Shown here piece after piece: positions 3,901 to 45,153 of a stretch of DNA of 64,000 nt. A model generated the notes under the pieces. The model searched no databases, was not told the origin of the DNA, and saw only the letters and a program-made list of their open reading frames with translations. Origin of the DNA: Diploscapter coronatus (lineage: Eukaryota > Nematoda > Chromadorea > Rhabditida > Rhabditidae); NCBI GenBank assembly GCA_964036155.1, contig OZ038423.1:22645249-22709248 (forward strand). Direction: 5' to 3'. A program made the position numbers and the translations under genes. Position 1 is the stretch's first letter. Each line of letters starts with the position of its first letter.

Positions 3901-6900
3901 TTAGAGGCACGGTGGAACAGCATGAGCCCTTCATTATCTCCGAGATCGGTATTGCCGGTCTCTGGGCAAAGACGATGGTCGATCGTGGCGCACAAGTCGC
4001 GAATGAAAATAGTATAGCAAGTGAAGAGAACGCAGGCGGACAAGGAGGAAAGGGTTTGCACCTTCCTTTGCCCAGGAACCGAGGCAATACCGCTCTCAAG
4101 GATAATGGAGAGGAGACAGCGAGACAGGAAAAACAAGCACACCCTGCGAAATTATGCTAAAAATCGCTTCGAACTATCTATGGCGACTTTTGAAAACAAC
4201 GATTTTCAGAATTCTTGCGCCCAACAACAGCCCCAACAGCAGCCTCAGCAGTGCGCCAACCAGTGCCAACAGCAGTGCCAGACCGCTTGCCAGCCAGCTC
4301 CGCAGTCAACTCCTGCACCTGTGCAGCAACAGGCAAAATAATCGTTAACAAATTCAGTAAAGATGCGAAATTTTAGTGCCAGCCCCAATGCCAGCCAGCT
4401 TGTGAGCCTCAGTGCACCACCCCACAGCAGTCCTACCAAGTCCAGGCTCAGCCTCAGCCCCAGCAAGATCAATGCCAGCCTCAGTGCATGGTATTAACAT
4501 TTTATAGACGAAAATTAACTACATCTCGAGTTTCAGGACCAATGCCAGACCTCTTGCGCTCAACAGCAGCAGCCAGTTCAGCAGTGCCAGCCAGTGTGCC
4601 AAGACCAGTGCCAGGTTTGAGGATTAACTATAAGATTTCATCGAAAAATGACATCTCTGAACTTCAGCAAGCGTGCGCTCCATCTAGCGGATCTCAGCCA
4701 ATGTACAACCCATACCAGCAGCAGCCACAACAGACAACTCAGCCAGCCTATAACCCATACCAGAACCAGCAGAACTGCGACTGCCAGCAGCCTCAGGTAC
4801 GAAAATTCGTCCAGGAAAATCACCGATAATCGGAGTTTAGCAGCAGCAGCCTCAACAGTGCCAGCAGCAGTGCCAGCCAAGCTCTTCATCTGGAGCTACT
4901 CAGACCATCCAGATCGTCCTCCAATCCTCGGTCGCTCAGTCGGCTAACTGCCAGCCTCAATGCGAGTCTGCCTGCACCAACCAATGCCAGCAACAACAGC
5001 CACAGGTGAAAGCGAGAAAGGTCAACTTTCTAAGAGGGAAATTTAGGCTAACTGCCAGCCAGCTTGCCAGCAATCATGCGCCAGCAGCTGCCAACAGGCT
5101 CAGCCCCAGACCATGGCTTGTCAACCAGCCGCCGCCTCCACTGGATGCCAGTGCCAGCAGGTAAGTGATGAAAAATAAGGGCGGTCGATAAGAATTATTG
5201 TCAGGAAAAAATACTAGTATTCTTTATTTCGAACTTTTCAAGATGAAAGCCCAAAGACAATATCAAAAGTGTAGAATATACTATTTGAATTAGGCGAGTC
5301 CAAAACCGATTATAGAAGATTTGATCAAAAACCTATAACTTTTCTCGAAACCAATCTTGTCTTGAGAATTTTCTTTTAAAAAAACTATTTCAGAACTACG
5401 ACCCATGCGGTAGCAATCAGTGCTGCAAGCGAAGAAAGTAAACGGGCCGTCCGAGTTTTGAAGGCATACGAAAAATTCGACTACCACGAACTTCGACACC
5501 GAAATCTCTTCTACCTTGTTTGTAAATATATGTGATCAAACAACTATTTTTATTTCATCAACTTATTCTATCATCATTCCTACATTGTGACTCTGAAAGT
5601 ACATCTCAAGAAAATGAAGATTACTGTAGGCAAAATACAGTAGTCCGTAAAATTATTGGCAAAATTTGCCAACCGATTGCCTGTTTAGCCTATTTTATGC
5701 TGTATTATTTTGACATCAAAATTGGGTAGCGTCGGAGAAAAATCGATGATTTTTCATCAACGCTACTCGAGAATGGGTAATAAATAAATGCATTTTTGAA
5801 ATTTTTAAAGGTTTTATCCTCCATTGTAAATGAGAATTCCTCTCTCTCCCTGACGGGAAAAGGGGAGATGCGAGCCTTTCGCTGCCTTTGGTCTCTGACT
5901 CTCGCTCTCTCTTCTCTCGCTACACTATTTTGACTCGCGGCTGAGTCGTGGCTCGCAACATCGCCTGTTTTGAACGGTAGGCGACGGCTTTGTCGTTTAC
6001 AATGAACAATAGCGAGCCTAAAGCCTCAATGATTCGAAAAGCAGGACGATGAGCAGTTATTCAAATTTGACTTAAGCATAACATCATGTTATCAAAATTT
6101 CATTTTAAAATTCATTATACATATTCAGCCTTGCCAAAATATCTCGCAAGTTTCAGCAAATCTGATATCAAAATGATCGGGTCAGAAAGATGATGAGCTG
6201 CCGTTGAATCTCTACTAGTAAGACATTCACAACAATTAAAAAGGTTTCACACAAATTACATAAGAAAATGAATTCTCAAACTGTTGATTGACGTTTTAAG
6301 CCCACATGAGTTTTCAAACTCCGCTCTATCATGTTCGTTAACGAAGAAAGAAACGAGCACAGTACAAAGGCAGAACATGGAAATGAGTTGAGTGTGGCGC
6401 TACCGTATCGATTTTCCGGCTAATTTCGAAAGTTTTCAAAGATTAGCTATTCATGCATTTCTCTTCCTTTGCTCATGATTTTTAATAATTCTGTGATGTT
6501 CTAGAACATTATCTCGCCTCTGCTTTCCTTCGCCAATGAATATGATAGCGTGAGCTCCTACCAAAGTCAGTTTCTTGATTCTACACAAGTTCACCACACA
6601 TTTGTGAGCCAAGGTTCAATGAAGCTCCCGATTAGCTCATAGCATTCTTGTCAATAATTTTTGCTTTACAATTAGATATTGAAAAGATCTAACCTTGCTA
6701 AATCCATGCTTTCTGAATAGTCCTGTCGTCTGTTTCCCTTCCCTTTTGCATTTCTCACAAACCGCATCTCTAATCAATTCCATGCAGAAGTAGCGACGCA
6801 GCAGCTTCTCCAGTGAAAATGGCTGAAAAATGACTTATGTTTTAAAAATTTCAAGATTTTTCTGACCTGTCCCATAAAAGCCTTGGGAATCATCAGCGTC

Positions 6901-9079
6901 AACGCAGTGAACGATTCGAATTTTGTCGTCTGGAAATCGCGTATCTTATTTTAAAGAAAAAGATTGAAGATAAACAATGCTCCGAAAGATTGCTGGATAA
7001 AATTATCAAAATTTTAGATAGTGACAGGTTTCCTTTAGAGACATTTTGGCTACACAGACGAATTTGAAAGAAAAAGGTGTATGTTTCAGAAATGTACTGG
7101 ATTAGATGTAAATCGTGCACTCGTAAAGTGTTGCATTCTGCGTTGTGGTCTAATAAAAAAGTAGAGAAGTCTCGAATTAAATAAAGACATACCTTGTATC
7201 CACATTCCTGGAGTGAGCATCGGTATTGAGTTGAGGTGTAACCAAGACAAGGGGGTCGCAATTGTGCGTCCAAACGAATCAGGGAACAGCATCTAGAATT
7301 TTATTTTTCTTTGTTAAAAACAATAGCAATATTAAATTTACCATTCCTGTTTTGCCAGTAAAGGGTGTTTAAAAATGTTTGAGACATCATTTCAAGAAAG
7401 ATAAATATCAACACTACCTATTGAAAAGACGAAATATCCTAATTTATCTGAGACACTTTTCGAAGTCATAATCTTCGAAAACTGACCTATCGAAGACCAA
7501 CTGCTTGATTTCCTGACCACGCCGTTTCAGAATCGGCGTCAGAAGGCCGGATGACGATGCTTTAGACGTCGATGGAGACTCGGATGCGCTCGATGACGGC
7601 AAATGGAGTTCGAGAAGTGACGATGTCATCAAGCACTTCTTCAAATATTGCAACTCGTCGTCCCACGTTGTCACGAACACGTTGAACAACTCGTAGAGGT
7701 CCTGTTCGGAGCCTGAAAATAAAACAAACTACTGTATAAGTGAAATAGGATGCGAAATTTCGCAAGAAATGATAAATCTTGATTTTCTGATAAGGTTCAA
7801 TTTCACGGGAAGACTGTTTTTAGGATCAATTGATAATTGGTAAGCGTAAAGAGATACAAATTTCAAAGTTTCAACCTGATAAAGGTCTAAATTGCAATTT
7901 TTAAATTTTAATGATCGAATGAGCACGCAAATTTCGCGCTAGTTTTTGCTACATGGCCATTTTATTGGATGGCTCATCGAATTAGACCATGCGTTTTTAT
8001 GCCTAGCCACTTTGAAGAGTACTTGCTTCCTATTTTTGAGTTTCCGACAACCGCTTTTTGAACAAAAACGAAAAATGCAAGAAGGCGGAGTTTGCCGTCT
8101 CTATGAATAAGTATCAAAATTGAGTATTTTAAAATTGATTCCACCAGAATAAAGTCTAAGAAAAATCTAATTAAAAATTACCAATCGTGATATTCCATCG
8201 ATGCTGCGATAGAGCTGTGGCGATGTTGGCGGCCGACAAAGTGGCTGCCTCCGGGTTGTTCAGGCCTGAAAAAGTAAGCTCATATTTTTCAGGCAAAATA
8301 TAGGCAAATTCGATATAACGTGATTTTTTCGAGTAGTTTTTTCCAATCTTTAACAATAGCTCAAATCATCATGCCGTTTCAGGATTTCAAAATATACCTT
8401 GAATAACTTCTCGCATCGCATCCAAAAGACCGTCTTTGATGTGTTCCATCGGAAGGTTGGTCAGCCATTTGTGGATGGAGGGGGAGCTGAAAAAGTGTTG
8501 AAATTTGAAAATTACAGCATTTAAACACACACACATACCTAGCGAGTCCTTGCAAAAGCGAATTAGCGTAACAAGTGTTGCCCAAATTGTACAGTCCAGG
8601 CACACCCACTGCGGTTCGTTCTGAAAAAAAAACAGAAAATTTGATCATTTTTGAAAATGTTTCAAGAAAAATGGGTTTTTTTTCTCATGAAAAGCGCTGA
8701 TAATGATTTGGCAATCGTTTTGAATTGTCAATTTCCGAAAGTAAAGTTTAAAGAATGATTTTTCAGGAAAACTTATGGGATTTTGCAATACATTAATTCA
8801 TTTTCACAAGTCGACCTCTATATTTTGAGGTTGAAGTCGAGTAGAAATACACTGCTGCTGCGGCCGCCGCGCCACCCAAAACTGCGCTCGCCACGAGGGA
8901 CTGAAATCGACTTAATTACTCTAATTTATCTAATCAATTATAGCTAATTGTCCTAATTAACGAAAGATAGTTAGCCTTATTATGACAATGTTCAAAATCC
9001 GAACTTCAAATGACATGAACGGCTCTTCGACGACGAATCCCTGACCAGGCACATAGACGGCCGGTGAATAATTACTCAT
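913..9079 (-). CDS. USP30: USP30-like ubiquitin carboxyl-terminal hydrolase (3' end outside window)
   Basis: Minus-strand exons: 9079-9005, 8900-8816, 8620-8539, 8486-8398, 8265-8182, 7712-7487, 7292-7193, 6929-6867, 6822-6694, 1053-913; all phases join, giving about 358 residues before the edge. The second exon encodes a short hydrophobic segment rich in Gly and Ala, the place where USP30 has its mitochondrial outer-membrane anchor. The third encodes the USP Cys box (GLYNLGNTCYANSLLQGLA). Later exons carry YELF of the QQDxxELF box, two Cys-x2-Cys zinc-knuckle-like pairs and LPQCLIIRIERVGILPGG, the LPxCLxIHLQR region. By family this is a Cys peptidase removing ubiquitin, in USP30 from mitochondrial proteins. 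The His/Asp boxes lie outside the window. The ninth intron is 5.6 kb and holds an antisense gene. The start is uncertain: an exon at 9137-9202 with its own ATG may be 5' UTR or could extend the N terminus. Confidence 0.85.
1054..2686. other. Intron DNA upstream of the nested gene
   Basis: This is part of the 5.6-kb USP30-like intron and 5' flank of the nested Cys-Gln-rich gene. Several short overlapping open frames occur on both strands between 1270 and 2610, without family resemblance, consistent splice sites or repeats. I see no gene here. Confidence 0.4.
2687..2694 (+). promoter_or_regulatory. TATA box of the nested Cys-Gln-rich gene
   Basis: TATAAAAG lies 198 bp before the start codon at 2885, in a clean context after an AT-rich flank. 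The distance allows a 5' UTR of roughly 160 nt. Strong TATA boxes are common in nematode genes for abundant, stage-specific cuticle proteins, which fits the product. This assignment is by sequence only. Confidence 0.5.
2885..5441 (+). CDS. Secreted Cys/Gln-rich abu/pqn-type protein (pharyngeal cuticle type), nested in USP30-like intron
   Basis: Thirteen exons: 2885-2935, 3113-3193, 3242-3334, 3452-3616, 3668-3736, 3784-3873, 4210-4332, 4377-4490, 4537-4614, 4668-4796, 4841-5005, 5047-5160, 5394-5441, giving 439 residues. Residues 1-17 form a signal peptide (MNPTVIVLIVASFVIAEA), followed by a dibasic KR site. The rest is made of Cys-Gln modules such as CQQSCQQQC and ends in CCKRRK. This matches the C. 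elegans abu/pqn paralogue group, low-complexity proteins of the pharyngeal cuticle that were also described as induced when the unfolded-protein response is blocked. All 12 introns are phase 0 and mostly fall between Q/C modules, so exons can be gained or lost in frame. The intron 4333-4376 needs a GC donor (CAG|GCAAAA), because reading through meets stops. The intron 3874-4209 carries a foldback element. Confidence 0.85.
3931..4109. repeat. Foldback element in intron of the Cys-Gln-rich gene
   Basis: Bases 3931-3971 and 4066-4109 are imperfect reverse complements of about 40 bp (for example ggtattgccggtctctgggc against its complement), separated by about 95 bp. The element fills much of one 336-bp intron in a gene whose other introns are mostly under 120 bp. 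Apparent open frames on both strands here are by-products of the repeat. Confidence 0.6.
5442..6693. other. 3' flank of nested gene / remaining USP30-like intron
   Basis: No exon of either gene is recognisable. A CT-rich, somewhat GC-richer patch (about 5830-6010) and AT-rich sequence with an AATAAATAAA run near 5780 are the only notable features. Confidence 0.4.
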
Positions 9080-9976
9080 CTCGACCCTAATTAACGATAA
9101 TTAGCCGGTAATTAGGGGATAGTTAACGGAACTTACGAAATAAGCTGTCGAAAACGGATTGGTTATGAGTTTACCAACATGACGATCGCAGACGCGTTGC
9201 ATTTATTCGAGCTAGTTTTTTTTCCGAATTTGAATTTTCGTGGTTTTACTGAATTTTTTTCGGTGTTTATTTGCTGGATTGGTGAAAATAATATCTGGAA
9301 TCGTTCGGGAAAAGGGTGGAAACTTTGAAAATGTTAGATCTTGTTCGAAAATCAAGATGTTCGGTTTTGGGCGCTAAAATTTTGTGAAAACTCATTTCTC
9401 CAACAGTTTTTTTAAAATTTTTCGACAAAGTTTGCCCTTGCAGAGGCGAATAGTCTGTAAAACTTTTGTCTTGACAGTCCGATTCTTTTGAATTGTATTT
9501 CGACGAATTTGGCATGTATCTTATTTTAGTGCTCGTGCTCTTCATCGTCTTCGAAAGACTTGCTGATAGGGGCGAGGCGAGGTGCGTATCCGCGAAAAGC
9601 ACAATATGAAATACGTAGTACAGAGACGCAGAGGATGGGAGAGCACAGTGGTTAATCTCGCGGATACCCCTTACTCCTCCTTCTGCAAGTCTTTTGAGGG
9701 ACAGAGGAGAGTAGGTCGAATCATTTTCTCAAAGTTGAAAAATCGATCGCTTTTCCTCCGTTTCAAAACTTTTCTTGCTTTATTTTCCCAACCCTGGAAT
9801 ACTCGGATTTATTTATTTCTTTTACAGAAACTAGAATTTCTGCTAGTTTGAAGTTTAGAAAGAATGATTTTCTTCATACGCTTCAAAACTTTTCTTATTA
9901 TTTTCTCGATTTCGAAATAATTCCTAGTTTGTTCCATTTTTCAAAAATGTTCATTCTCATTTTCAGCGAGTCGGAT
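9080..9976. promoter_or_regulatory. Divergent promoter region between USP30-like gene and mrg-1
   Basis: The two genes are transcribed away from each other across about 0.9 kb. The part nearest the USP30-like gene contains a possible 5' non-coding exon (9137-9202, donor GTAAGT) with a short upstream open frame. A 111-codon minus-strand open frame at 9267-9602 has no recognisable similarity. No specific factor site can be named. Confidence 0.4.
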
Positions 9977-12900
9977 ATGGCGCCCCCAACGAAGAAGTAC
10001 CAACAGAACGACAAGGTGCTGTGCTCGCACGGCCAGTACTGGTATCTCGCCAAGATCGTCGACGTCCAGGACGAGAAATCTGATAATCCCGTCTACACCA
10101 TTCATTATCAGGTATTTTTTGAAATAGTTATTCGAGATTTTAAAGAAAAGAATGTGACAAATCACTTTATCGAACAGTTTTTCCTGATAACTTCTCACTT
10201 AAAACATATGATCATGAATACGTGGGAAATTTTTGAACATACGATGATGAGTTTCGGTCAATAATTAGCCATTCACAAAATTAGGATCAAAAACATTTTC
10301 ATAAATCAATCTGAAAAACTTAGATTTTTGAAACCTACAACTTTTGATATTAAGGGCTGGAAGAAGACGCACGACGAGAAGATTCCGCACTCGGAAACGC
10401 CCGAGCGATTCAAGGAGTACTCCGAAGATGCACTCAAGGAGGCGACCGAGCAGCAGAAACAGGGCTCCCAAGCAGCCTCCAAAAAGCGCCCCAGAAAGTC
10501 TGAGGTGAGAATTGATTTGATCACTTTTAGCTAGGCAAATGAAATTTTAAACAGACTTCTCAAAACTCGACCCCAAAAATAGCGTGTCATTTCAAGAGAG
10601 AAAGAGGTCATGTCTTCTTTATCTCTCGGAGGGATGTACTATTTTTTCTGCGGAGTCTAATTTTAAAATGATGATATTTTCAGTTTCTATAGATTTCAAA
10701 AAAGTTCCTATTTAGAAAAATTTTTTATTTTTTATTTTTTATGCTAGATTTTTGTTACGGACTTGCAATTTTTTCGGAAAATTTACAACCGCACTGCAGT
10801 TGCACTTGTTTCCTTGCAAGTCTGTTTATTATGAAATACAAAGGATAGATATTTTTGAGGAAAAAATTTTAAAATCAAAACTTTTTCTAGTTTATTTACA
10901 AATCGAACATGAAGCTTTTTTTGTTTATATTCTTCCCCAAATTTAGTTTAATTTAGCAAATTGAGGTGCGCAAGAGCGAGGGCAGTCGCGGCTCGACGCC
11001 CGAGACGGCGAACAGCAGCAGGGCCTCGGTTAGCTCCGACAAAATCAACAAGTTCAAGAAGCGCAAGAGCGACGCTGGCAAGACGACCACCCACACTCCA
11101 ATTGTCCCTACCATTGGTGAACCGGTAGGGATCTATTGACCATCTGTATATATCATCAGCTCTTTTCTTATTTCTCTTCTTTTCCTATCCACCCTCATCT
11201 CTCTATCCAATGACATATATAAGTAGCTAAATTTATTTATTTGAAGTATCAGCGCTTTTGCGTAGTAGATTATTTTTGAGTGAAAAATAGAAATTTCAGA
11301 TTTTTTTTAAACATTTATATTTTTGATAAGAATATCAACTCTAGAACGAGATCGACATCCCGCACACATTGCGGAAGATCCTAATCGACGACAACGACTG
11401 CATCAATCGGCAGTTCAAGGTCCACAAACTGCCCGTCAGATACACCGTCCAGGACATTCTCGACGAGGTTGAGTATTGTTTATTTTAATTACTGGAATTT
11501 GAATTTATTTTTTTTTCAAATTTTCCTATCAAATATTTTTGTGAAGTGAACTGAAACTCGTAATGTTGGTATGGCTCAAAACAACAGTTGCTCTATCGAT
11601 ATTGATAAGAGGCTGCTTCCCAAGCATTTTAACGAAACATAAATAATTTTTGAGTTTAGCACAATGAAAAATCAAGTTCAATTTGCAGTACGCGAAGGAC
11701 TTCGAGACTCGTGGGATCAAAAAGGAGGCTGAATCGGACATCACCGAGGGCGAATCTGTCAATGATCAGGTAGATTTTGAAGAAAATCGACTCGAGTCCA
11801 CTTTTAAGGAAATTTGAAATACCTGACTAATCTTTGGGCCTCTTACTCTTATTTCAAATGAACGAACAGTATTCAATTCAAATTTGGAATTTTCCGGAAA
11901 GCGGATTTTTATCAACAATTCAAACCTTGCCTATTAAAATTCGAAAAGGAAAATAGCTAGATGTTTAGCTGGGACATATTTCTTTTTGTGAATTGTTGAA
12001 ACTGTTATTTCAGGTGCTGATCATCTACGAGAACGGCGAGATCACTGCGTCCGCCTACAAGTTCATCCTCGGCGCAGAGGGCATCAAGGACTACTTCAAC
12101 ACTCTGCTTCCGTCAGTTTGGAAATTTTATCTTTTGAAATATGACCAACACCTACTTCCTGTAGTATTCAATGTAATACTTCTGTCAAATGTTTGCAAAT
12201 TGTGAAACGTACCGAAATTTATGATTTGAAACTTTTATTTTTTATGGATATTGATTTTTGAATTTCTAAAAGTGATTAATTGAGCAAGAAGTGTATCATC
12301 AAATCAAATTTAGAATATTGATGAGATTTTCTAATATAACCGTTTATTTTCAGCTACCAGCTGCTGTACAAGTTCGAGCGTCCCCAATACCAGGAAGTGA
12401 GCAAGGGAGCTGAGACCAAAGGACGCAAGAGTCAAGAGGGTGAGGGCGAAATTTTGACTTTTTGAATAATTCATTCTGTTATGTCATGGTTTCTGATATC
12501 GAGCTGGTAGGCTACATGTCGTTTCATTGTGATCAGCTCATCGAGTAGTGTTTCGGCTTTTGATTCTACCTGGCTCTATCCCAGCCTAATCTAGTTACAG
12601 GAGAGCGGATTAGTTTACAGGGAGAGGATGAACTACTCAAAAAAGATGAACGAATGAACTGTTTAAAAGGACAAATTTTGCAATAAGTCGATAAAAACTA
12701 TTTATTCCGTCTCTAGCAAATCTATAAGTTTTTTTTAACTGGTTGCGAGTACTTTGTTCCAAACGTTATTTCTCTCGTTCAATCTCTCCCTTATGCTATT
12801 TCTCCTTTTTTCGTTTTGGGACAAAAGTATTCGCAGCTAAAAAATAAAATTGTTAGGAATGAAGTATGAAACTTGCCAGAATTTTCGCTGAAGAAATACA

Positions 12901-14196: not shown

Positions 14197-14338
14197 ATTA
14201 TATATCGTCGGAACACCGACACTGTCTCTAAAAAACACCGTCTCTTTCTTATTTTTTCCGTTTGCCTATATTTCCTCATCCTAAAATCCGGTGTCTAATA
14301 CCAGACGGTGTCGATGTACCGACAGTGTATAATATAGC
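14197..14338. repeat. MITE-like foldback element
   Basis: Bases about 14197-14232 and 14301-14338 are inverted copies. Both read, in one orientation or the other, TATTATA, then GTCGG(A/T)ACA(C/T)CGACAC, then GTCT, with a short pyrimidine-rich centre. Length about 140 bp and no coding capacity. It resembles small non-autonomous hairpin transposons. Confidence 0.6.
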
Positions 14339-21711: not shown

Positions 21712-24700
21712 CTACATGTGTATCGACTGAATAGGTTGATCGTTTCTATCGTCATTTACGACTAGATGCAGTGCGCCGTGGCTGTCGGAACTAGCGACAC
21801 TCGCCCCGTTGTCCAAATCGGAAGGTCGGTACGTCATGTAGCCGATTATCGTCGCAAGTATCGATAACAATTTGCAGACGATCGCTAAAGTTTATACTAT
21901 TTTGCGTTACTAAATCATCGAAGCGATTAATTTTAGGCTTGTTATTTTGTCAGTGGCCAATTACTTGAGACGAAGCAAATGGCAACCTTTTGATGCACGG
22001 GAATTGGCTCGTTGTTTGTTGTCGACTTTACACTATTACAATATATTCAAAGAACGAGTTGGACGACTATTTGTGAATACGCAATGCACACCTACATATT
22101 CGAATTTGTGCATCGTTTAATTTTTCACGAGAAAATTATAGCTCGATAAATAATCGATCGTGTTGCGTTTCAAAAATATCCTAGTGATGCTAGAAATCAT
22201 TCATATTTTACCGAAGTTTAGCCTACCTAAAGCAGTGATGGTCCAGCTTAATTTTGATGGATCGTAGACGAGACAACTTGTCGATTTTCCACAGGACTTT
22301 CCCCATTGCAGACATGCCGTGTCGATGACCACACCGAATAGAATTCCACCGGGAATGAAACCTGAAGGTAAAAAATCACTAATTCTTTGAAATTGGAAAA
22401 TGTTACTTTTATACTTTGCTGACAAATTTATTGAAATTTTGGAGAAAACTCTTATTCGAACTTACCCAATAACCTCAAGAACGTCCAATTGATTCCTAGC
22501 GCCAAAGTCCGTTGATCAAATGGCACAACTCTCAACATAATCTAAAACAAAATTTAGATTGGTTTACGACAAAGTGAATTCCTTACTTGCTGACTCGGAA
22601 TTCCCGCGGCGAAACTCGAGACTGTCGTGATGAAAATCGTAATCATCAAGATGTAAGTGTTGTAGCCACAATCCAACGAGCAATAACCGGAATGAACGTC
22701 TTCAGAATCTGAATCGTCTTTGACAGCGTCTAGAAACGATGAGGACAGCAAAGACGACGTGGTATTGGAGATGCATGAGCAGGAAGACCAAGAAGCGCCG
22801 TTCTGAAAGAAAATGGTCAAGGCGTGGTTATTCTTTTAAAAAGAATTCCTTCTGAAAGACATTCACACATTTCAGGGCCAAAATTATCTAGTTTGATCAA
22901 ATTTTTCAATAATTTTGGCTCTTCGAAATTTCGAGATCAGGCGAACTAATGTGTAGAGTTAGGAGACGGTAGGGAAACGTTCACTCGCTTTGCATACTTT
23001 TGCTTAGTCGTAAAGTAGTGAAAATCCAAGTTGTTATAGTTTTTTTTTTTAAAGAATATTGGTATATCTTTTAGTTAACTATACAAATTACCGAATTTTC
23101 AGTCTTGTCAGTGCATCCGGCGTAACAGGCAGAGTAGAATATCCGTCCAGTTTTCCGATCGCAAACAGGGTTCCACTCGGACGAACAATGACATTGCGAA
23201 TTGCATGGGTTTTTGATCGAAGGGGGCTGGTGAGCTTCGGGATGTAAGCTTGAAATTTCAATTCTAGATTCTCGAGTCATAGAGGTATTGTTGTTAATTT
23301 TTAAATGAAATGCCTAGTTATTTTGTTGGATACTTTGGGAGTTTCCATGGTCTTAAATAGTAGGGAAGTGAATAACCTAGCATTCGATAATATTTTGAGA
23401 ATTATGGCCCACATTTCTGTTGCATATCCCGAAATATTTCATTGTGAATCTTAAAGGATAATAAAAATCTTACTCGTCTCCATAGGGCATGTTGATCCCG
23501 ACGAAGTTTCGTTTCGGGCAATGCATTAGCAATCCAGTGATGAAGATCAGTGCTATCAAATGGCAAATCGCGATCATTTTCAGCATCCCTCCGACCTATA
23601 ATTATCACTAAATCAAAGATAATTGGGAAATTATCGCACTTGCAGCTTCAATTGTCTAATTATCGTTCCACCAATCATAACACCTGCAGCTGCAGCGAAA
23701 ATTACCACCGCTAAAAGTTTTTAATGATTTATTTAGTTTAACTAGCTAATACTACAGTGCCGTCCATGTGTCTTGGAACTTTCAGTTTTTTCGAAAAATA
23801 TTCTTCTAATGAAATTTTCAAATTTTAATTTTTTTTTCAGGTGAAAGCTATTTCTATGGGCTTCAAAACGGTGTATCGGAATTGCGCGCTATTTACACTG
23901 TAGCTGCGTAAATCTTGTAAAATTAGAATCGGATCGTCCAAGAGTCTTGGAACTTTAACATGACACTATTTAAAAGGTTTATAAATAACTTAGAAACGAA
24001 ATTATGATAATAAAAGCTGATAAAATAATAAGATTAGCTCAATAGCGAGTAGAAAACGCCTAGACTTGATGGCCTCTTTGCATCTGTTAGGCACTGAAGC
24101 CATCAGAAGATCGATCGTGCACTGGTCTGTCTTGTACCATTCCCGGGGCAGAATGGTGAACTTTTCGTCGGTATTTCGAGCTTGAATGCCCTTAACTCGC
24201 CTCTCCATATCGCTCCACAAATATTCTATCGGATTCAAGTCAGGAATTGCGAAAATCATGGAAGGACGTTCACTTTTTCGCCTTGAACCATTTCTGGACT
24301 ATGGCAGATCTGTGCTTGTGGCCATTATCCTGCTGGAATACCCATCCAGTGGGGATTTTTTTTTCTTGGAAAAGGAAGCATGTGCTTCTCCAGTATCCCC
24401 TTGTACATATTGGCGTCCATGCATTCATAAATACGGACAAGGGGACCGACGTCAGATATACTGAAACATCCCCATACAGTGACAAATCCACAACCGTGCT
24501 TGACGGTGGGCATTTGGTATTTGGGGTCGAATCTGGTACCTACCAGACGTCGAATCCACCGTTTCTTACCATTTCCAAACATATTAAACTTGAATTCGTC
24601 GTTTCAAAGAATTTTAGACCACTGCGCCGTGACCAGTCCTTATGCGACTTCGCCCAATTTTTTCGTTCGGTCAATTATTTTTTGGAGATAAACAGCTTAC

Positions 24701-27700
24701 GAACCCCAACTCTACCATTCAAACCCTCTTTACCCAGGCGACGTTTTATAGTGGTGACAGAAATTTTATCGTCAAGAATTGGGGAAATTTCGGTAAGAAT
24801 TTGGGAAGCAGTAAGACGAGAATTGGAACGAGAGGTTCTAATAATCTTTTGTTGACGTGCCTATTGATCTTGTGGGGTCCACCGGTCTTGGGATGGTTCT
24901 GTAGGGATCGGCGGTGTTGTGTGTCATCGAATCAATGAGAAACTGACTGCTTGGAGACTTGGAAATTAGCATCTGCGTCGGCGAAACTGTGTCTGGCCTT
25001 GGCGCGCTTGATGATCCTCTCTTTCAACTCGACGGTATAATATTTGCGAAAAACCATTTAAAATCGATAAAATCTACACCGATAAATAAAAAAATTAAAT
25101 AAATACGATAAAAAAATAAGATAATAACGATGAAAAGACAAAAATAGTAAAAGTTCCAAGACTCTTGGACGATCCGATTCTAATTTTACAAGATTTACGC
25201 AGCTACAGTGTAAATAGCGCGCAATTCCGATACACCGTTTTGAAGCCCATAGAAATAGCTTTCACCTGAAAAAAAAATTAAAATTTGAAAATTTCATTAG
25301 AAGAATATTTTTCGAAAAAACTGAAAGTTCCAAGACACATGGACGGCACTGTATATTGCTAGGGCATTAATGATATCGAGTTTATGATAGAATTTCATTT
25401 TCTATTAAACTTATTGAACCTCTCTATGCTAGAGAAAATGAATGACGTATTTATAAGAGATCCTTCTGGAATTAATATTCATTCGTTACATACAAACTTG
25501 TTAACTTTTTAAACTTATTCTAAATACGAACTATTCGCTTAAAACAACTTACACGATAGATAAGACGCTAAAATCGGTGAAGTACTCAATAATGTCTCCA
25601 AAATTTTCGGCATGAAAGCGGAGAATCCGTTTATGATAATTGATTCGAAAATTCCTACGAATACACAAACGATAAACGTAGGATTTTTACAAATAGCCTA
25701 AATTCTTCAATCTTTATAATTTATTCAGAAATGACCTACCCATATAATTTCTGGTAGCTTTTTCGTATCCTTCGATGATTTCTTATGCAAATCAGCGTTA
25801 ACCGCGTGGCACTAAAAGATAAATGGGCAATTATTTACGAGCTAATTAGCATAATTACCTGATTCACATCTTTCGCCCTGTGCCTTTTGGCCTCGGGTAA
25901 TTCTCTAGCGAAGGCCAGAATTGGAAAGGCAATTATTAGGGCCGCTAAGGAAGAAATCAGAAATCCAACCCACCAAGCGCCGACCCATCTTGGATCAGAC
26001 GAGCTCATTTCATATCTGGAAATCCGAGTTTTATTCAATTTTAAGACAAAAAATTGATTGTTTAAATGAAATTTCACCCAGATTCTCGTATGTATCGACT
26101 TTATTCTTATCTAATTGATAAACCTTGAAAACTACAAGATACGGAAAAGGTTCTGTGGACAAACTCGAATGTAAATATCTCATCCCGGATGATTTTGAAT
26201 CCGGTCAAATTTAATATTTTTGAAACCTCCACATTAAAATTGGCCATATATATTAGTTTCATAAGATTTCGATATATTGTGCCCGGCTTACGGTACCTTT
26301 CTAACGACGTATGCTGTCGCAAGCTTTACCAGAACAAAATTAGCATTTTAAATTAACAGGTGGGTGAAAATAGCAATTAAGAAATTGAACATTTTGCATA
26401 TTATGCACCATTGGGACAAATTGAATTCAACAGATGTTGACTTTTGTGACTATCAATGAGACATCAGCCTCTTAACAGTGATAGGAACGATGTTATGATA
26501 AAATGAAATGTTCCTGATAGTCTATTAACATCAAGCTTCAAAATGGTACCACACTTGTAATCATCATGATTGATACAATATCTGTAGTATAAAAAATCAA
26601 CCGTTACCTACAGAACTTCTTCCTCACCCCGTAGTGGGAAGTAACATTAACGATTCTTTTCCGTAAAGTCTTCTTTTTTCTTAATTTTTATTTTCAGTTC
26701 CTCAACACTTCCTTTCAGCTACCCACTTTTCCATCTCTTGCAAGAAAATGCGTGAAAGGGGGCGATGCTCTGTGGTCGAGTGGTAGTGCGTTAGACGCAA
26801 TAGCGCTGCACGAAATTAGGCCAGATGATTACAACTTATTTGCTACTCTTGATCCAAGTGTGATGAACACCGTGAGCAATGATGGTCTAATTTTGTGCCA
26901 ATTACCCCTAATTAGCTTTTCATAATTGGCCAATTGCCGATAAATGGGGCAATTGCGCTAATTATATATATTGTGTACCTATCAGGACGATCGAAATCAT
27001 CGTGCAAATTGAGGAGAAATCCTCCGACGAAAAGACCGACTACAGGACCCAGTGTCGTTAGAACTGCGTGGATCGCTAAACTAGAATAATTTAGATTTTT
27101 TCTAAACAACAATTTAAACTTTGCCCTTCGCAATGCAATTAGGATGTACGCAATAAAATTTTTTAAAAGTGCAAATTTCTAAATCAATGTACTGTCCTAA
27201 AATTGAACGTCCTATTCGTGTTCATTTTTCAAATCGAGTACAGATGAACTCAGGATTTGAATGTAATCAAATTTGCACTAAAATTCTAAATCCATTTTAC
27301 GAAAGTGCGTTTTGTGACTTACCTAAATACACTGGTGACGCCTTTTGTGACACATTTTCGTCGATAAATGTTGTGCCGATGGAAAATAATGGAGTAGAGC
27401 CGAATCCGTGTAGAGTTTGGCCCAAAATGAACATCCAAAAATATGGATTGAGCCATGAAGACATCGAAGCGGAGGTGCATTGTTTTTCATCCCTGAAAGA
27501 CACTCTCCTCTCCAATCGACGAGACCTTTGCCTGTGCGATTCGCGTCACTTGAATTTTATTGTCGTTCGCGAGTGAGGATAAAGAATGTGTGATGCGAAT
27601 CGCACAGACAAAGGTCTCGCCAATTTGGTAAGAAAATAATATTTCCAAAAAAGCAAACTATACGATATGGTAAATTGTCTGTATGAACTAGCGATCCTAG

Positions 27701-28855
27701 TGCTACATATCTCTCGATTATTCTCATACGATTTCATTCATGAACTTAAACTTGAAATATTTAAACCAGCGAACCAAGTCTAATAACGATCACTTTTTTG
27801 TGGTTTAAAAGAACTGTACGAAAAAAGATCGAAGTCTTCATCATCAGTGTCTACATGACTAAATTTTTGAAGCATAGCAGCGGATTCAAGAAATGTAAAT
27901 TCTAACCTAATTGTGCACTGTCCAAAATCGGACTCGTTATGGACATTCTCTGAGGGAATGTAAGGGGCGGCCATCCAGTGTGGCAGGGCACAGACCAGCG
28001 AGCCGACGGCCATCACGATTCCCCCCAACCCGATCCATCGACCCTTGTGTCCGCTGTTCCCCCAATGGCACACTGGGAACACGATCAGAAGCACCGCGAA
28101 GTCGTACCAACTCGATATCACTCCCGTATGAGTACTAAATTGAAGTTATTGAAAAATGATCCATTTTAGAGAGTTTTCAAAGAAACGTTCCACCATAGCA
28201 TCGTTGTATACGAGAGAGTGTAGATTGTTGTAGAAAAGAATACTTTTTCTATGGTAGTTCGTATGCAACTATGCGACTATTGCAACTACTTTCACAGGTT
28301 ATCCGTAAGTCTTTCGTTTCTATCAATAGTTTCCTTTCAAAATTATCCAAACTCTTCAGAAACCCAATTTAAGAGTCTATGACTATTTCACATTTGTTTC
28401 AGAAATTTAGGCTTCCAAGGAATCGCAATTATGTAACTGATCTGTCAGTATTGTTATTTGAAGCTATAAAGTTTGGAAATGAAATAAGTTTTAGAGGTTT
28501 CATGCTTATGAATGAGTAATTACTTGCCTAGTCATTTGAAACCGCTTCTCCAATGTTGATAGGCCCACTGGAAATATCGCGTTAACGACGAAACTCTAAA
28601 AAGTCTCTTTCGAAAGATAAAGTCCGATGAAAATGCCTGAATAAATGCGCATATACCCAAGGCTAACAATAAACATTTAGCATTATGAAATTTCTGGAGC
28701 CATCGAGGTGTGCATCTGAAACAAGTGACTTTATAAGTTACGAAAAAGGTTTAAATTTACCCCCCATAACCGCATAGTAAAGGAGCATCTTCGAGATCTA
28801 CCGACTTGAGGTTCTCATCTGAGTCTTCGAAAACGTCGACATTGTGTTTTTCCAT
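21712..28855 (-). CDS. Organic anion transporting polypeptide (OATP/SLCO family)
   Basis: Sixteen minus-strand exons: 28855-28761, 28715-28637, 28595-28528, 28134-27907, 27492-27323, 27075-26979, 26015-25859, 25811-25740, 25697-25553, 23710-23640, 23595-23474, 23248-23092, 22802-22587, 22541-22466, 22361-22227, 21884-21712, giving 686 residues, a normal OATP length. Family landmarks in order: TM1 and STLEKRF; GVISSWYDF; the TM4 region GQTLHGFGSTPLFSIGTTFI; DPRWVGAWWVGFLISSLAA; the Kazal-type extracellular loop (CHCSSEWNPVCDRKTGRIF, then CYAGC); RTLALGINWTFLRLLGFIPG in TM11. The 12-TM plasma-membrane carrier takes up amphipathic organic anions such as steroid or thyroid-hormone conjugates; the substrate here is unknown. 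ATTTCAG directly abuts the ATG (trans-splice site). Introns 2 and 3 need GC donors. The intron between 23711 and 25552 holds a dead Tc1-like element and that at 27493-27906 a foldback. Confidence 0.92.
23755..25351. mobile_element. Tc1-like transposon with about 200-bp inverted repeats (IR/DR type), inactive
   Basis: The element is 1597 bp, flanked by TA on both sides, beginning CAGTGCCGTCC and ending GGACGGCACTG. The inverted repeats run from 23755 to about 23957 and from about 25151 to 25351 and are almost identical. Within each repeat a motif of the form CGTCCAxGxGTCTTGGAACTTT occurs twice, once near the outer end (23761-23782) and once near the inner end (23935-23956), the IR/DR arrangement of paired transposase-binding sites. 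It sits inside an OATP intron, with its transposase remnant in the same direction as the host gene. Confidence 0.9.
24002..25057 (-). pseudogene. Tc1-like transposase pseudogene
   Basis: The remnant begins at an ATG on the minus strand (25057) with an N-terminal helix-turn-helix-like stretch and meets a stop after about 45 codons. Later pieces lie in different frames: a middle region with KFNMFGNGKKRW, preceded by the first catalytic Asp; VWGCFS; QQDNGHKHRSAIVQKWF with the second Asp; and PDLNPIEYLW with the catalytic Glu. Several stops and frameshifts separate these blocks, so no functional DD34E transposase can be made. Long plus-strand open frames over this region are shadows. Confidence 0.85.
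27510..27628. repeat. Foldback element in OATP intron
   Basis: Bases about 27510-27548 and 27591-27628 are inverted copies containing GAGACCTTTG(C/T)CTGTGCGATTCGC(G/A)TCA, separated by about 42 bp. It lies in an intron of the transporter gene and explains apparent open frames on both strands here. Confidence 0.65.
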
Positions 28856-32466: not shown

Positions 32467-34463
32467 ATGGAAACCGCACCTCTAAACGATATTTTTGAGG
32501 ATATAAAATACAGTTTGGGACTTTGTCATGACATCGTTGCTGATGGTGAACTGCAGAAACTACTTCATGCTAATGTAAGAGGATGTTTTCTTGAATTTAT
32601 TTAAAATATTTTTAGGGGTTTGTCGGTGAACTATACGCTTTCGAAGGTCACTTAAGAATAGATGAAAATGTTAGGTACAAACTTGTGGCCAAGGTATGGA
32701 AAATAATTGAATTTTTAAAGGTTATATTTCAGATCATGAAAATCAACTCAAATTTCACTCCCGAAATGCAAGAAAATCTCAAGAAAGTTAGATCTTTGTC
32801 CAATTATTAAAGGCAAATTTGAATGTTAGATTCACAATCTCGAATGCGACGTGTACAAATTATTAAGGGAGCACTTTCGATCGACAAATTTGAAATTACA
32901 GGTAAACTTGTAATTTTTCAGAACAACTTAGCACAGGTATACTTAGTTTTCTTTATAATTGTTATTAATTTTGACAACTTGTATAAGTAGCTACTTTGAA
33001 CTAAATAGTATGTTGCAAAGATTCCCTAATCAAAAGATATTTCATCAAAGGTGGATACTTTTCGGTGGCTACCTTTACAAACTCTATTATTATTTTCAGA
33101 CCTATGCACTGATAAAATTCGTGGACGAAGATGATGATTCCGCATACATTGTAATGGAACATGTTGGTAATTTGGTGCCAACTAGTGTTTGTGATACTCT
33201 CACCAAGTCTGAAATGGAGCAGGTGTAAATTAAACTAAACCCAAATAATTTTTATAATTTTATTTTTAGGTTCTAGAAAATCTAGCATTATTTCACAGCA
33301 CTACTTGCGATGATGAACATTTCGGAGAGGAATTATTTTCGAATAATGTCAGTGGCATGTTTAGAGACGACGTAATCTTTTAAAATAATACATTTTAAAA
33401 TTAACAAGATATAAATCTAGCTCGTACCATTGACAATGAAACATCTCCAAAAATTAACTGAATCTCAAGAAAAGGGAGATACTTATGGAGAAGCTGCCAA
33501 AGTTCTGGTGAATCTATTGAAAGCGGGAGAGATGAGAAAGTTTAATGATAAATATGGTAATCTTGAGACTAATAAAGTTGAGAATAAGTTATTCAGGAAG
33601 AGTATTTTGTCATGGCGATACCTGGCAGTCGAACATCTTATTTGTCAACGACAACGGAACGAGAAAATTCCGAGCGTTCATTGATTTTCAGGTAAAGAAG
33701 ATAAATTTTGGTATGCTTTAAAATTTAAGAACCTTTCTGCATTTAAACCGCCATTAATCTCTAGATTATTTCTTGGCCTTAAGATCAAAATACTGTTTAA
33801 AAATGACTACATTTACAACCCAGAATTAGTTTTAACGATTATGCTTCAAAGTTAATGAAATATGGATAAAAAAAGAATATCGATAACTGAAGTAACCTGA
33901 ATAATTTGCCATTTTGCTACCCATAAAATAATATGGGAAGAGGTTTCTTCCTACCTTGTCCTATACTCTTAACTATGGGTAAGGAGTAACGGATTATTCA
34001 AATTGCCTAAATTGGGGTTGCCGTTTTGGCGTATTTATTAAATATTCTTAAATTTAGACCACACACACGGGCAACCCAGCTATAGACTTGGCTCGATTAT
34101 TTTGTGGATGTCTTACGAGGACAGATCTAAATGACCACACTGATCATTTCTTGAAATTTTACTATGAAAAATTATCAGCTATAAAGCAGCCTCAGTTTTC
34201 TCTGGAACAGGCATTAATTTATAATTTTGTATTTTGCAAATTTTTATTTTAGCTGAAAGAAGCCTATGATATCATGTATCCATTACAAGTCTATTTGCAA
34301 CTCGCAAATGCAGCGTTTCTAGGAGAAAAAGAAATGCAAAACAAAAGTGCCGAGGTTATTATTTTATTTTACTTAAATTAACTTCTTTGAGTAATTTTAG
34401 GAAAGGAAACAGTTTCTGACTAATATCAACAGTCTAGTAGATGATTTGAAGAAAGTTCTGTGA
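32467..34463 (+). CDS. CHK-kinase-like / EcKinase (DUF1679-type) protein
   Basis: Eleven exons: 32467-32574, 32616-32693, 32733-32786, 32830-32901, 33100-33222, 33270-33371, 33421-33556, 33597-33691, 34058-34210, 34253-34354, 34401-34463, giving 361 residues, about the family length. Motifs follow the aminoglycoside-phosphotransferase-like fold: a Lys-bearing N lobe (KLVAKIMKIN), hinge YIVMEHVG, catalytic loop CHGDTWQSNILF (HGDxWxxN) and metal-binding IDFQ in place of the usual DW, followed by GNPAIDLARLFCGC. Relatives are expanded in nematodes and insects; a few act as small-molecule kinases and the substrate here is unknown. The intron at 34211-34252 is 42 nt and needs a GC donor (CAG|GCATTA); reading through gives a stop. 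AATAAA occurs near 34590. No signal peptide, so probably cytosolic. Confidence 0.85.
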
Positions 34464-37180: not shown

Positions 37181-37284
37181 AGGCTATTTAGAAACCTCAA
37201 ACCATGCGAAATAGGCTGAGAGATGCCAGGGAAAACGATTCTTTTCTCACACTATTTCGCATGGCTTGAGGTTTCCAAGTTGCC
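37181..37284. repeat. Short foldback element
   Basis: Bases about 37181-37216 and 37250-37284 are inverted copies containing AAACCTCAA(A/G)CCATGCGAAATAG around a 33-bp centre. About 100 bp long, non-coding. Confidence 0.65.
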
Positions 37285-37496
37285 TATTGTCGCGTCATCA
37301 TCTTCGTTTCGCGAAACTTTATCTTTTTCATGACCACCTTTTCAGGCTGTTCGTTTCACTGTTAATCTCTCGAACAATCAGCCCTGGTTTCTGTTGCGTT
37401 TTCTCGTTTCCTCATTCAACTCTACGGGTAGAATTCTAATTCGAAAGACCGATTAACGCAGGTCCGGAAAAGGACGAATCGATAGGAACAACAATC

Positions 37497-40400: not shown

Positions 40401-43400
40401 TCTCGATCCACGAGGACAAGAATCGAGTGCCCTATGTGAAGGGAGCCACGGAACGGTTCGTTGGTTCTCCAGAGGAGGTTATGCAGGCGATCGAGGATGG
40501 AAAGGCCAACAGAATGGTCGCTGTTACGAGTAAGTCGGATCTAAATTCTCAAATATCTGAATCTAAAAATTTATTATAAAACTTCTGATAGTTCAGAAAA
40601 ACCACGCGAAATTGGTTACAAGGAAAGCTTCTTTCAAATGTTAAACTTTGATACATATTTGAAAGTTACGAACTTTCATACTTATGATCCAAAAGGCCAG
40701 ATAAAATAACAAATTAAATTTATTATTTTCCACGAACTTAAAACTGAAACACGTTAAATATCTGATTCTCTACAAAAGTATACACATGTAGACAAATTTC
40801 GAAACTTATCCGACAAATTCCAGACATGAACGAGCACTCGTCCCGTTCTCACTCGGTATTCCTCATCACTGTCAAGCAGGAACATTCCACATCGAAGAAG
40901 CAGCTCACTGGCAAATTGTACCTAGTCGACTTGGCTGGTTCGGAGAAAGTATTATTTTTTATCGAGTTTTCTTTCATCCTGAAATTATAGGTCTCAAAAA
41001 CCGGTGCCCAAGGTACCGTTCTGGAGGAAGCAAAGAACATTAACAAGTCGCTGACAGCACTCGGTATTGTCATCTCCGCGCTCGCTGAGGGAACGGTAAT
41101 TTTTGAAATTTTGACATCGCCATCCTAAAAATTCGATCGGATTATCAATTAAAATCCTCATTGGTGAATAGAAGTTAATGAAGCACAGAATGAGTAGCTA
41201 AGTATGAATTCCAGTAAGATTTTTAGAATTTATCATTTCCTTTGTATATGTGAGAATAAAAGTGCGATTTTAGAACTGCAATAATAACACATTAAATTTG
41301 TCGAAACATATTCTAAGTAAAATTTAGAAATCCCACGTGCCCTATCGAGACTCGAAACTTACTCGAATTCTGCAAGAATCTCTCGGAGGCAACTCTCGAA
41401 CGACTGTGATTATTTGTTGTTCTCCATCGCATTTCAACGAATCTGAAACCAAGTCGACGTTGCTTTTCGGAGCTAGGTAGGGACTTTCACATTTTTTAAA
41501 ATTAAGCTAAATTTTCAGAGCTAAGACGATCAAGAACGTCGTCGTCGTCAACGAGGAGCTCACAGCCGAGGAATGGAAACGGCGATACGAGAAGGAGAGA
41601 GACAAGGTGAATTTTTGTTGAAATATTTCAAGAAAAACACATTATCAATAAGTCACAGCTTGAGGGGTCTCCAGATCTCCAGATTTCTGAAACTTACGAT
41701 AATTCCATGAACCTGTCGATTTCTACATCGAACATTTTCAATGGAAATAAAATTAACGATGAATTCAGGTCTCGCGTCTTTCCGCTCTTCTTCAAGCGGC
41801 GCAAATGGAGTTGGGCCGATGGAGGTCGGGCGAACGCGTCGCCGAATCCGAGTGGGTCAATCTCACGGAAGGAGCTGCCATGGCTATGTCCGAGAGTGAG
41901 TATTCTTTCCTGTATCTATGGTTTAAGTACGATGATCAATATTGTATCGAAAACAGCGGCATCCGATTAAACAGCAAATAGTTTGAAACTTGTGAATTAT
42001 CAAAAACTTGTCAAACTCGCCGAATAATTAGTGCACTGAAAACGTCGCAATCTGGTATCCCGTCAAATGAGCTTTTCGAAATCCATATAATCCACACAAC
42101 TGAGCTTGATTATTCCAGTCTCCGGCGGCTCTTCGACCCCACTCATGGAGCGTTCGATGATCGCTCCGGCACCGCCGATGCTTACCTCAGTCACAGGGCC
42201 TATCACCGACGAGGAAAAGAGAAAGTACGCGCCTTTATTTGGAGTGCAACTTTATCGCACAAATATCAGTCGCAATTTTAAGTATCTTCAATAGTACAAG
42301 TTTTAGATGTAGAAATTTGATCGATGTGTCACAGCGCTTACAAAAGTGACCTAAATTGCATCCCCATTTTTACTTTACCGCGGAAATTCACCCTGAAACT
42401 TTAGGTACGAAGAGGAGCGCGTCAAGCTCTACCAACAATTGGACGAGAAAGATGACGAGATCCAGAAAGTCAGTTCGGAGCTGGAGAAACAGAAGCAACA
42501 GGTAATTTACTTAGTTGCTCCAATTAGTCGGCTTATTTGCCCCAATTAGCTTTATTTAATTGCCATAGTTTAGGTGCTCCTTCTGGACGAGGCTATTCAG
42601 CAGCTCAAGGAGAACGAAGAACAAATCCGAGAGGAGAATTCAAGGATTCTCAAGGAGGCAGAGGATAAGCAACAGGAAGGAAAGGAGGTGGAAAATGGAA
42701 TTTTCGACGGTATTTTTGGAGGATGAAAAATTTAGATGATTACCGCCCTCGAAGAAATCGCCGTGAATCTGGATCTCCGAAACGCCGAATACGAGAAGAT
42801 CAAGGTCCAACTCGAGCAGTTGCAGGTACTCGAAACGAATTTTGGAGCATTTCGATAAATTCCTAGTTTACCTAGACCGAAAGTTCCATTAGTATTAGAA
42901 ACAAAATAGTTAACTTGAGATTCAGAATTTTTTAAAACATAAAATGAAATTATGCAGGAGTATAGAATTTTCGAAATCTTACATGCACATCATTAAAAAT
43001 CATAATATACCACTTATCCTCCTCATTAAAAATTTTTTTTTGTAATAACCATCGACTTGATATTTCAGGAAGATAATCAAGCTCTGGAGGACAAGATGAA
43101 CCATGCTACCTCCACTCTGAACGCTCACTTGGAGGAGTGCGGTCCGAAGATCAAGAACTTCAAAGAGGCCATTTACAACATCGTCAGGTACAGATTCATA
43201 AGTTATTTAGCCGCAGGACTAACTCTGTATTAAGCGTGTTCTTATTCATTAACACCTAAACCAAGAGTTAGTTTATCTTGAGATCAAGCAATAAGTAATT
43301 CGATTGCAGGGAGTACAGCATCGCCGACATCCAGAATCCGAACGACCATCTGCCCGATCACGACCTCCTCAATCACATGCGAATCGGAGTCTCCAAACTC

Positions 43401-45153
43401 TTCAGCGAATCCGTCGCTGCTAAAGAGGTAGGTTATTTTAGAAAACTTTTCGTACATCAAATATTAGTCGATCATTATAGAATTTTCCTTGGAATGAAGA
43501 GGCAAAATGTTTAAACGAATCTATTATTTGACGACAATATACTAGAATTTCAAGCTAAAATGAATTACAGTCATTTTTTGCTGAATCAATATACATAAAC
43601 CATTAAGCCATATTTGTAGAGCATAAATCCTTTAACACGCAGTGATTCACCGTAATGTGATTCCAAAACATAAGCAATTATTTGAGACATAATCTAAACA
43701 TGTTATTTCAGACGAGTAGCGCTGAAGCTGCCGCGGCAGAGAACAAGTTGGCAATGGACGTGTCGAAGCTGGAAGGGCAAGATGCGGCCAAGATGAAACA
43801 GTTCCTTGTCAAGGAACAGGCCACTAGGGAAATCAAAGCTTTGTCAGGTAAATGTTGAGAAAATTTTGAAGCTTACTATTGAAAGATAGGTTTTCTTGAT
43901 AAAATAGTCTTCATATCAAGAAAGAATCTTCAAGAGAGCGAATTTTGTCAAATATGGGTGATAGCTGAAAAATCTTGAAACTTGCATAATAGAGAAAACT
44001 TGATATGATCATAATTATTTATTTCTTCAATTCTGATATCTAATTTATCTCAGAGCGCGTGAACATGGAGTTCGCCACGCTGAAGAACCTGAAATCGGAA
44101 TTCCTGCGTCTGATCCTCTCGAAGTGTCAGCCAACCGGGGCAGAGATCGACGAGGACAGCTTGTCTGGACCTGCTCAGAAGCAGCGAATCCAGTTCCTCG
44201 AGAACAACCTCGACAAACTCACAAAAGTTCACAAGCAGGTAAAATTTATGGATAGGTTTCAGGAAGTTGATTTGATGAGTTGTGGCTTCCTAATACACTG
44301 GTTCAGCGGGAATAGTCATAGTATCAAAATGAAACTGGTTATTAAAAATTCAATAATATCGATAAGATTAAGGAAATTAAAAGATAATGGTTAAAACTAG
44401 ATCTAATTCAGCGCTGATGAAAACGTGATAAAATAATCGAGAATAAAATTATGCAAAATTTCAGCTCGTCCGCGACAACGCCGACCTTCGAGTCGAGTTG
44501 CCGAAGATGGAATCTCGACTGCGAGGTCGCGAGGAGCGAATCAAACAACTCGAGGGCGCACTCAGAGAGTCCAAGGAGCGAAGTCAGGTCGAACGGAAGA
44601 AGTATCAGCAGGAGGTTTGTCAAATTTGAGTTAGAAATGAAAGAAAGCAAATTTTAGGTGGAACGCATCAAGGACGCCGTCCGTCAGAGAAATATGCGTC
44701 GTCAGAACATGCCTCAGGCAAGCAATACCTCTAATTTAATTATTTGAAAACAAATTAGCGCAAAATGGTCTTGAAATTTCGCTGCTGATCTTCTTTGAAA
44801 CATACTTTGAGCAATCTAATTGTAAATGATTGACACATCTTCGAGTGTCATATGACGAGATGGTCAGACCTAACCTTTTCAATACAAGTTCGCCTTGCTT
44901 TCACCCCCTATCTCTAACTATAGGTCTCCTCATATAGGAATTGCAAGACACAGTGAATACGCTGCTAAAATTTTCTAAGTTTTGATGATTCCAGATCGTG
45001 AAGCCGATTCGCCCCGGTCAGCCGTTCACTCCTGTGGTGGTCGCTGGCGGCGGCGGTGGCGGCTCTCCTGTCATTCGACCTGCTAACGCCGGACAAATGG
45101 GCGGTGCGTCAAATAATTCTACCCCTGAGAGTGCAGGGACCAACCTTAGCTAG
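37497..45153 (+). CDS. unc-116: Kinesin-1 heavy chain (UNC-116/KIF5)
   Basis: Twenty-one exons: 37497-37526, 37887-37982, 39297-39458, 39760-39913, 40386-40529, 40824-40948, 40991-41095, 41328-41476, 41519-41606, 41769-41895, 42119-42224, 42405-42501, 42574-42687, 42736-42825, 43069-43187, 43310-43427, 43712-43847, 44054-44238, 44465-44614, 44658-44717, 44995-45153, giving 837 residues. The N-terminal motor has the P-loop [11 protein letters not shown], switch [10 protein letters not shown] and switch II DLAGSEK; then neck, long coiled coil and the globular tail with [10 protein letters not shown], the autoinhibitory IAK-type motif. It carries vesicles and mitochondria toward microtubule plus ends. 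The intron after 44717 has a GC donor (CAG|GCAAGC), firmly supported because tail homology resumes at 44995. The frame stays open for 91 codons after the TAG stop at 45151-45153. Confidence 0.96.
40010..40145. other. GC-richer island in a kinesin intron
   Basis: Inside the 472-bp intron between 39913 and 40386, about 135 bp differ from the AT-rich surroundings and contain related short blocks such as AGGCCGACTGTCCC and TAGCCGACTCCACT. No coding frame continues from the flanking exons. It may be a repeat insertion or an unannotated structured RNA; neither can be shown here. Confidence 0.3.

Follow-up and report, generated by a model that had tools for sequence, protein, structure and literature searches.

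The window examined here is a 64,000-nucleotide stretch of the nematode Diploscapter coronatus genome (contig OZ038423.1, positions 22,645,249 to 22,709,248), and it carries, among others, a Cys-Gln-rich gene, an MRG-type chromodomain gene, an OATP gene, a CHK-kinase-like (DUF1679) gene and a kinesin-1 heavy chain gene. A first-pass annotation placed five introns with a GC rather than a GT donor in this sequence, and direct inspection located all five, each starting with GC and ending with AG (Table 1). Judged from sequence and homology, four of them (both OATP introns and those of the CHK-like and kinesin genes) are firm, and the fifth, in the Cys-Gln-rich gene, is probable. All five are best read as ordinary U2-type (major-spliceosome) introns whose donor carries C at position +2. 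The share of GC donors in this genome appears to be about 2 to 3%, several times the C. elegans value, an estimate that is supported but not proven.

The annotation had further claimed that no GT donor could be used at any of the five, and this holds for the four firm introns, where homology or a Pfam match spans the junction and inspection by eye found no fitting in-frame GT alternative. The spliced OATP piece of 157 amino acids matches Pfam OATP at 4.2e-28, whereas the read-through version, which stops after 92 amino acids, gave zero Pfam matches at E up to 1. Over both OATP junctions, the OATPs of C. tropicalis, C. auriculariae, Necator and Ancylostoma show the gapless sequence GICAFIQSFVVNAIFPVGLSTLE(R/K)RFKMTSTHTG. 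Counted by eye, the gene has 15 introns, 13 with GT and 2 with GC. The CHK-like junction falls within a Pfam DUF1679 match (7.7e-16), and reading through its intron meets an in-frame TAG. A 64-amino-acid piece of the kinesin had no Pfam match; an alignment to the PDB Kinesin-1 heavy chain covers the junction at 2.7e-44, and the shared segment is continuous in four of the five other nematode kinesins compared, the Mesorhabditis variant reading PQIVKTIRPGQ. For the intron at 4333, however, the claim is too strong, because a weak in-frame GT donor (CCT|GTGCAG) remains 12 nucleotides upstream of the GC donor and the Gln-rich protein permits no homology test. A gene finder with decoy donors selected the GC donor there, and forbidding GC costs 2.7 in score.

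Two of these genes contain further sequences of note. The kinesin GC-AG intron carries a dispersed repeat, with 38 of the 40 genome matches listed lying outside the gene and its allele, and an OATP intron contains pieces that we take to be Tc1/mariner-transposase-like.

Published gene models of D. pachys differ from the window genes at the same places. In the tail that the two have in common, the D. pachys kinesin WR25_09100 agrees with the window kinesin at 114 of 116 residues, both mismatches being among the last three residues of WR25_09100, and this model stops by reading into the intron that precedes the GC-donor exon. The D. pachys OATP WR25_17769 passes directly from GYGG to THTGV and does without the two exons joined by the GC-AG introns, although both exons are present in all four aligned relatives. 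We consider that GC donors probably account for the loss of the kinesin C-terminal IVKPIRPGQ segment and of the conserved OATP N-terminal segment from these models. They are not the sole cause of the gaps, since WR25_09100 also lacks part of the motor domain and WR25_17769 also lacks one segment whose introns are GT here.

The assembly comprises 169.7 Mb in three contigs. The two long ones, of 87.7 and 82.0 Mb, are taken as the two haplotypes (labelled C1 and C2), and the remaining 13.4 kb, a difference of totals, would be a third contig that is probably mitochondrial. Over 84 kb compared (72,767 aligned bases), the haplotypes diverge by 5.1%. At the five GC donors of the window, the other haplotype has GT twice and GC three times, and an MRG intron shows the opposite arrangement, so that in the compared region three loci (4333, 34211 and 10112) have GT on one haplotype and GC on the other. 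The spliced MRG protein of the other haplotype matches Pfam MRG and a chromodomain-like family. Among 93 gapless donor-acceptor pairs, 85 were GT/GT, four GC/GC, three GC/GT and one AT/AT, and the acceptor AG was identical in all 92 pairs whose two donors were each GT or GC. Four introns with alignment gaps had been excluded by the script, and the gapped MRG intron was added back by hand. One of the three GC/GT pairs, at 12446 (GCGAAA on C2, GTGAAA on C1), was rejected as a GC donor because the GC allele retains an in-frame GT donor 6 nucleotides upstream. At that site the other haplotype has two tandem donors, and the GT/GC change may have removed the alternative one.

Table 1. Introns with GC donors and other features of the window and of loci elsewhere in the assembly.
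Feature	Position	Strand	Details
GC-AG intron, Cys-Gln-rich gene (probable)	4333..4376	+	44 nt; donor CAG|GCAAAA; other haplotype CAG|GTAAAA
GC-AG intron, OATP gene	28596..28636	-	41 nt; donor CAG|GCATTT; GC on both haplotypes
GC-AG intron, OATP gene	28135..28527	-	393 nt; donor TAG|GCAAGT; GC on both haplotypes
GC-AG intron, CHK-kinase-like (DUF1679) gene	34211..34252	+	42 nt; donor CAG|GCATTA; other haplotype CAG|GTATTA
GC-AG intron, kinesin-1 heavy chain gene	44718..44994	+	277 nt; donor CAG|GCAAGC; other haplotype CAG|GCGAGC
Intron, MRG-type chromodomain gene	10112..10354	+	GT in window haplotype; other haplotype GC (CAG|GCATTT)
Tandem donor site, MRG gene	12435-12450		Other haplotype: two in-frame GT donors 6 nt apart; window haplotype: GT then GC
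GC intron, USP30-like gene	Just outside window		Both haplotypes have donor GAT|GCTAGT; USP30 alignment spans junction
GC intron L032			GC on both haplotypes; intragenic duplicate has GT at matching exon end, with 3-nt alignment gap there
GC intron L026			Both haplotypes have GC; a weak in-frame GT lies 6 nt downstream as an alternative
Dispersed repeat in kinesin GC-AG intron	44850-44944		
Presumed Tc1/mariner-transposase-like pieces in OATP intron	24002-25057	-	
USP-like protease, N-terminal half	7444-9079	-	
Cys-rich gene	56246-57805		Near-identical coding units, spacing about 453 nt
Divergent U1-like gene cluster (L057-L061)	G000:C1:33560995-33563004; C2:31565593-31566759		Partly paired across contigs

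Upstream of the window, close to its edge and likewise on the minus strand, lies a USP30-like C-terminal half. The Cys-Gln-rich gene sits between it and the USP-like N-terminal half on the opposite strand, and the two halves are perhaps one long gene containing a nested gene.

The frequency of GC donors was estimated in this one nematode genome with a semi-Markov gene finder written for the analysis, in which all 16 donor dinucleotides compete with an equal prior of 0.01 for each non-GT donor. Its input was 304 kb and included the 84-kb locus on both haplotypes and 14 other 10-kb stretches. Earlier gene finders (trained on long open reading frames or at order 4) converged on the Gln-rich repeat gene and were dropped, and the later ones overlook genes rich in AT, among them OATP and CHK. 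Counting both haplotypes, 339 introns were called, with donors GT (324), GC (8, at 6 distinct loci), AT (4), CA, AA and CG (1 each). On a single haplotype, the locus gave 106 introns (101 GT, 3 GC and 2 AT), and the 14 other stretches gave 137 (132 GT, 2 GC and three others). The GC share is thus 5 of 238 GT and GC introns, or 2.1% (interval 0.7 to 4.8%), in a set that was not chosen for GC; the P value is 0.015 against 0.6% and 0.044 against 0.8%, and three of the five lie within the 84-kb locus. The value given for C. elegans in the available part of PMC5906903 is 0.6%, or 2,429 GC-AG introns. Adding the OATP gene (15 introns, 2 GC) and three CHK introns (1 GC) by hand raises the count to 8 of about 256, a figure that is biased upward because both genes entered it through their own GC introns.

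These counts bear on the first-pass figure of near 4% in about 130 introns. An elevated share is supported by the 5 of 238 and by the pattern counts below, but 4% itself is not established, with 2 of 134 outside the locus, and about 2 to 3% is the better figure. The denominator was not reproduced, as 77 introns were called in the window, with the OATP gene and the CHK 3' end missed. Five of 130 would differ from 0.6% with a binomial P of 0.0012, yet the window was picked for its count.

A genome-wide pattern count also pointed to GC donors in a strong short-intron context. The pattern MAGGCAAGTN{22,36}WTTYCAG had 27 matches against 6 for its reversed control, and its GT form had 77 against 22. 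The GC share of the excess over control is 28% (15 to 42% by resampling), for which there is no C. elegans value for comparison. It is not the overall GC share, because GT itself is rare in the MAG|GTAAGT context: the full-consensus donor was seen in 1 of 233 local GT introns, compared with 5.1 expected from position-wise base frequencies (P 0.036). A stricter pattern left 2 GC matches (a single allelic pair; control 0) and 9 GT matches (control 1). Nine GC pattern loci were judged collinear on both contigs, and a similarity script found members on each contig for 8 of 16 distinct groups. Its output further included 17 GC/GT rows over the similarity threshold, one of which was accepted by position (C2:64038234, GC; C1:68518365, GT).

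The donors themselves suggest where pairing is strong. The test set held nine GC introns, seven of them graded robust, and its donors matched CAG on the exon side at a mean of 2.4 of 3 positions, compared with 1.7 of 3 for 233 GT donors (P 0.008), as the first-pass annotation had proposed; with the seven robust introns alone, P is 0.019. The intron-side difference between GC and GT donors was not significant (P 0.14). The shortness that had also been ascribed to these introns did not carry over to the larger set, where 4 of 9 GC and 67 of 233 GT introns are 60 nucleotides or shorter (P 0.24).

Variants of the U1 5' end had been suggested as a place to look, and they do occur, although none of them alters the base that faces donor +2. 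Scoring of 42 of 2,364 candidates yielded 37 matches, of which 27 begin AAACUUACCUGG and ten are variants. No match carries G opposite donor +2, and all 37 keep A, so a U1 change at this base does not explain the GC donors. A cluster of divergent U1-like genes has the 5' ends AAACTTACATGG, AAACTTACTTGG and AAACTAACCTTG, which are predicted to alter pairing with the donor exon side or with +3. LUC7 (PF03194) was tried as a cause of GC tolerance, a role that we had presumed and for which a literature search found no supporting paper. It has matches at two collinear loci per haplotype as well as weaker ones, and no loss or gain could be judged.

We therefore need an explanation in which the A-C mismatch is tolerated at recognition, since the scored U1 copies keep A opposite +2. 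The major spliceosome would splice introns whose donor +2 is C, with the mismatch to U1 tolerated and pairing carried by the exon side CAG|G, a step that is supported but unproven. Both D. pachys and D. coronatus are reported to be parthenogenetic and to have a single chromosome pair (PMC9071541, in the part available). In such an asexual lineage, selection against a T-to-C change at +2 may be weak, and where the exon side is good a GT donor could drift to GC on either chromosome copy. Taken as a whole (ordinary introns, exon-side pairing, a GC share of about 2 to 3% and weak selection in an asexual lineage), this is the explanation that we favor, with a little better than even confidence.

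A stronger form would let donor +2 switch almost freely between T and C after the loss of sex, with GC accumulating independently on the two chromosome copies while U1 is unchanged; we put this forward tentatively, and it is rather doubtful. The T-to-C difference between haplotypes is 4.3% within introns and 3.2% over all noncoding sequence, so that an unconstrained +2 would give about 3.9 GT/GC differences in 90 introns, or about 2.9 at the lower rate. The three introns added by hand were picked for GC, and without them, the CHK intron included, 2 differences are seen in about 90 (P 0.25 against 4.3%). Near-neutrality is not forced by this number, however, because a steady GC share of 3% would also give 2 differences at P 0.07, with 0.44 expected per 90.

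That last comparison is one of several results that weigh against the explanation we favor. Outside the 84-kb locus, the 2 GC introns in 134 are not by themselves above 0.6% (P 0.19), and one of these two calls, L026, has a weak in-frame GT nearby (Table 1). Lowering the prior for non-GT donors to 0.001 leaves one GC in the 14 stretches, whereas a prior of 0.03 retains two among more decoys. One of the excluded gapped introns has GT on C1 and AT on C2, where the C2 model uses a different donor, and in another, whose acceptor did not align, the donor is GT on C2 and GC on C1.

Some of these results fit a rival that we consider unlikely but worth weighing, namely that the introns are real, the genome-wide share is the usual 0.6 to 1%, and the clustering in the window is due to chance and drew attention for that clustering. 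The 2 of 134 is what a share of 0.6% could give, the OATP and CHK genes were counted because of their own GC introns, and the 8.9% of GC-AG introns in Heterorhabditis bacteriophora, a gene-prediction artefact, dropped to 0.79% after re-annotation (PMC5906903, in the part available). This rival, however, has to accommodate the 5 of 238 in a set not picked for GC, the genome-wide GC share of 15 to 42% in strong context, and haplotype differences that exceed those of a 0.8% steady state (0.12 expected of 90, P 0.006).

Less probable still is that some GC sites are decayed donors, with the allele using a nearby GT or being non-functional while the worm relies on the other haplotype. The weak GT upstream of 4333 and the GT that is retained at 12446 are of this kind, but at three window donors and three others both haplotypes carry GC, which leaves these six loci without a GT copy, and the OATP protein is conserved around its GC donors. 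Selection for regulated or alternative splicing, as for let-2 in C. elegans, where a GC donor takes part in regulated splicing as told in the available part of PMC2490688, would suit the six donors that are GC on both haplotypes (the three in the window, L026, L032 and the USP30-like one) and the GC enrichment of alternatively spliced genes that the same text describes, but one haplotype has GT at three loci and the OATP and kinesin introns connect segments found in aligned relatives, which makes it very improbable.

The reading that we favor, of ordinary introns with a tolerated C at +2, has its closest precedent in cyst nematodes and their kin, where GC/AG introns reach about 2.4 to 3.6% (3.46% in Globodera rostochiensis, 3.53% in G. 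pallida and 2.36% in Rotylenchulus reniformis). The portion of PMC4901422 used here describes the rise as apparently restricted to Heteroderidae, which are plant parasites. As in Diploscapter, elevated GC donors were overlooked there by automatic annotation and are partly conserved between close genomes; Diploscapter, by contrast, is a parthenogenetic clade V nematode that lives free, and such donors of it as CAG|GCATTT and CAG|GCATTA deviate from the cyst-nematode consensus CAGG[T|C]AAGT. C. elegans also combines GC donors with ordinary AG acceptors, although more rarely, and its GC-AG introns are said in the part of PMC2490688 available to be unconserved with C. briggsae (5/26). The same portion counts 656 GT/GC-variable sites of 123,530 (0.5%) among eight vertebrates and judges neutral fixation of GC in strong context plausible in mammals. 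Orthologous donors switch between GT and GC in mammals as they do here, but in Diploscapter 2 or 3 of about 90 do so between two haplotypes. Heterorhabditis is alike in that abundant GC-AG introns were claimed for a clade V nematode, and unlike in that each window intron of Diploscapter was checked by homology or allele. A literature search, which did not cover the D. pachys genome paper, found no paper combining Diploscapter with GC-AG, and the term is absent from the text of the D. coronatus genome paper (PMC5483258).

Diploscapter would thus be another nematode lineage with elevated GC-AG introns, as already known in cyst nematodes. Re-annotation of D. pachys with GC donors allowed is worthwhile, since conserved parts of proteins are currently lost from the published models. 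If the share holds, clade V would gain a rise in GC-AG introns with phased haplotypes that display ongoing switching between GT and GC. If, in addition, donor +2 is nearly free, a splicing rule that is all but universal would be undergoing a live relaxation that could be dated.

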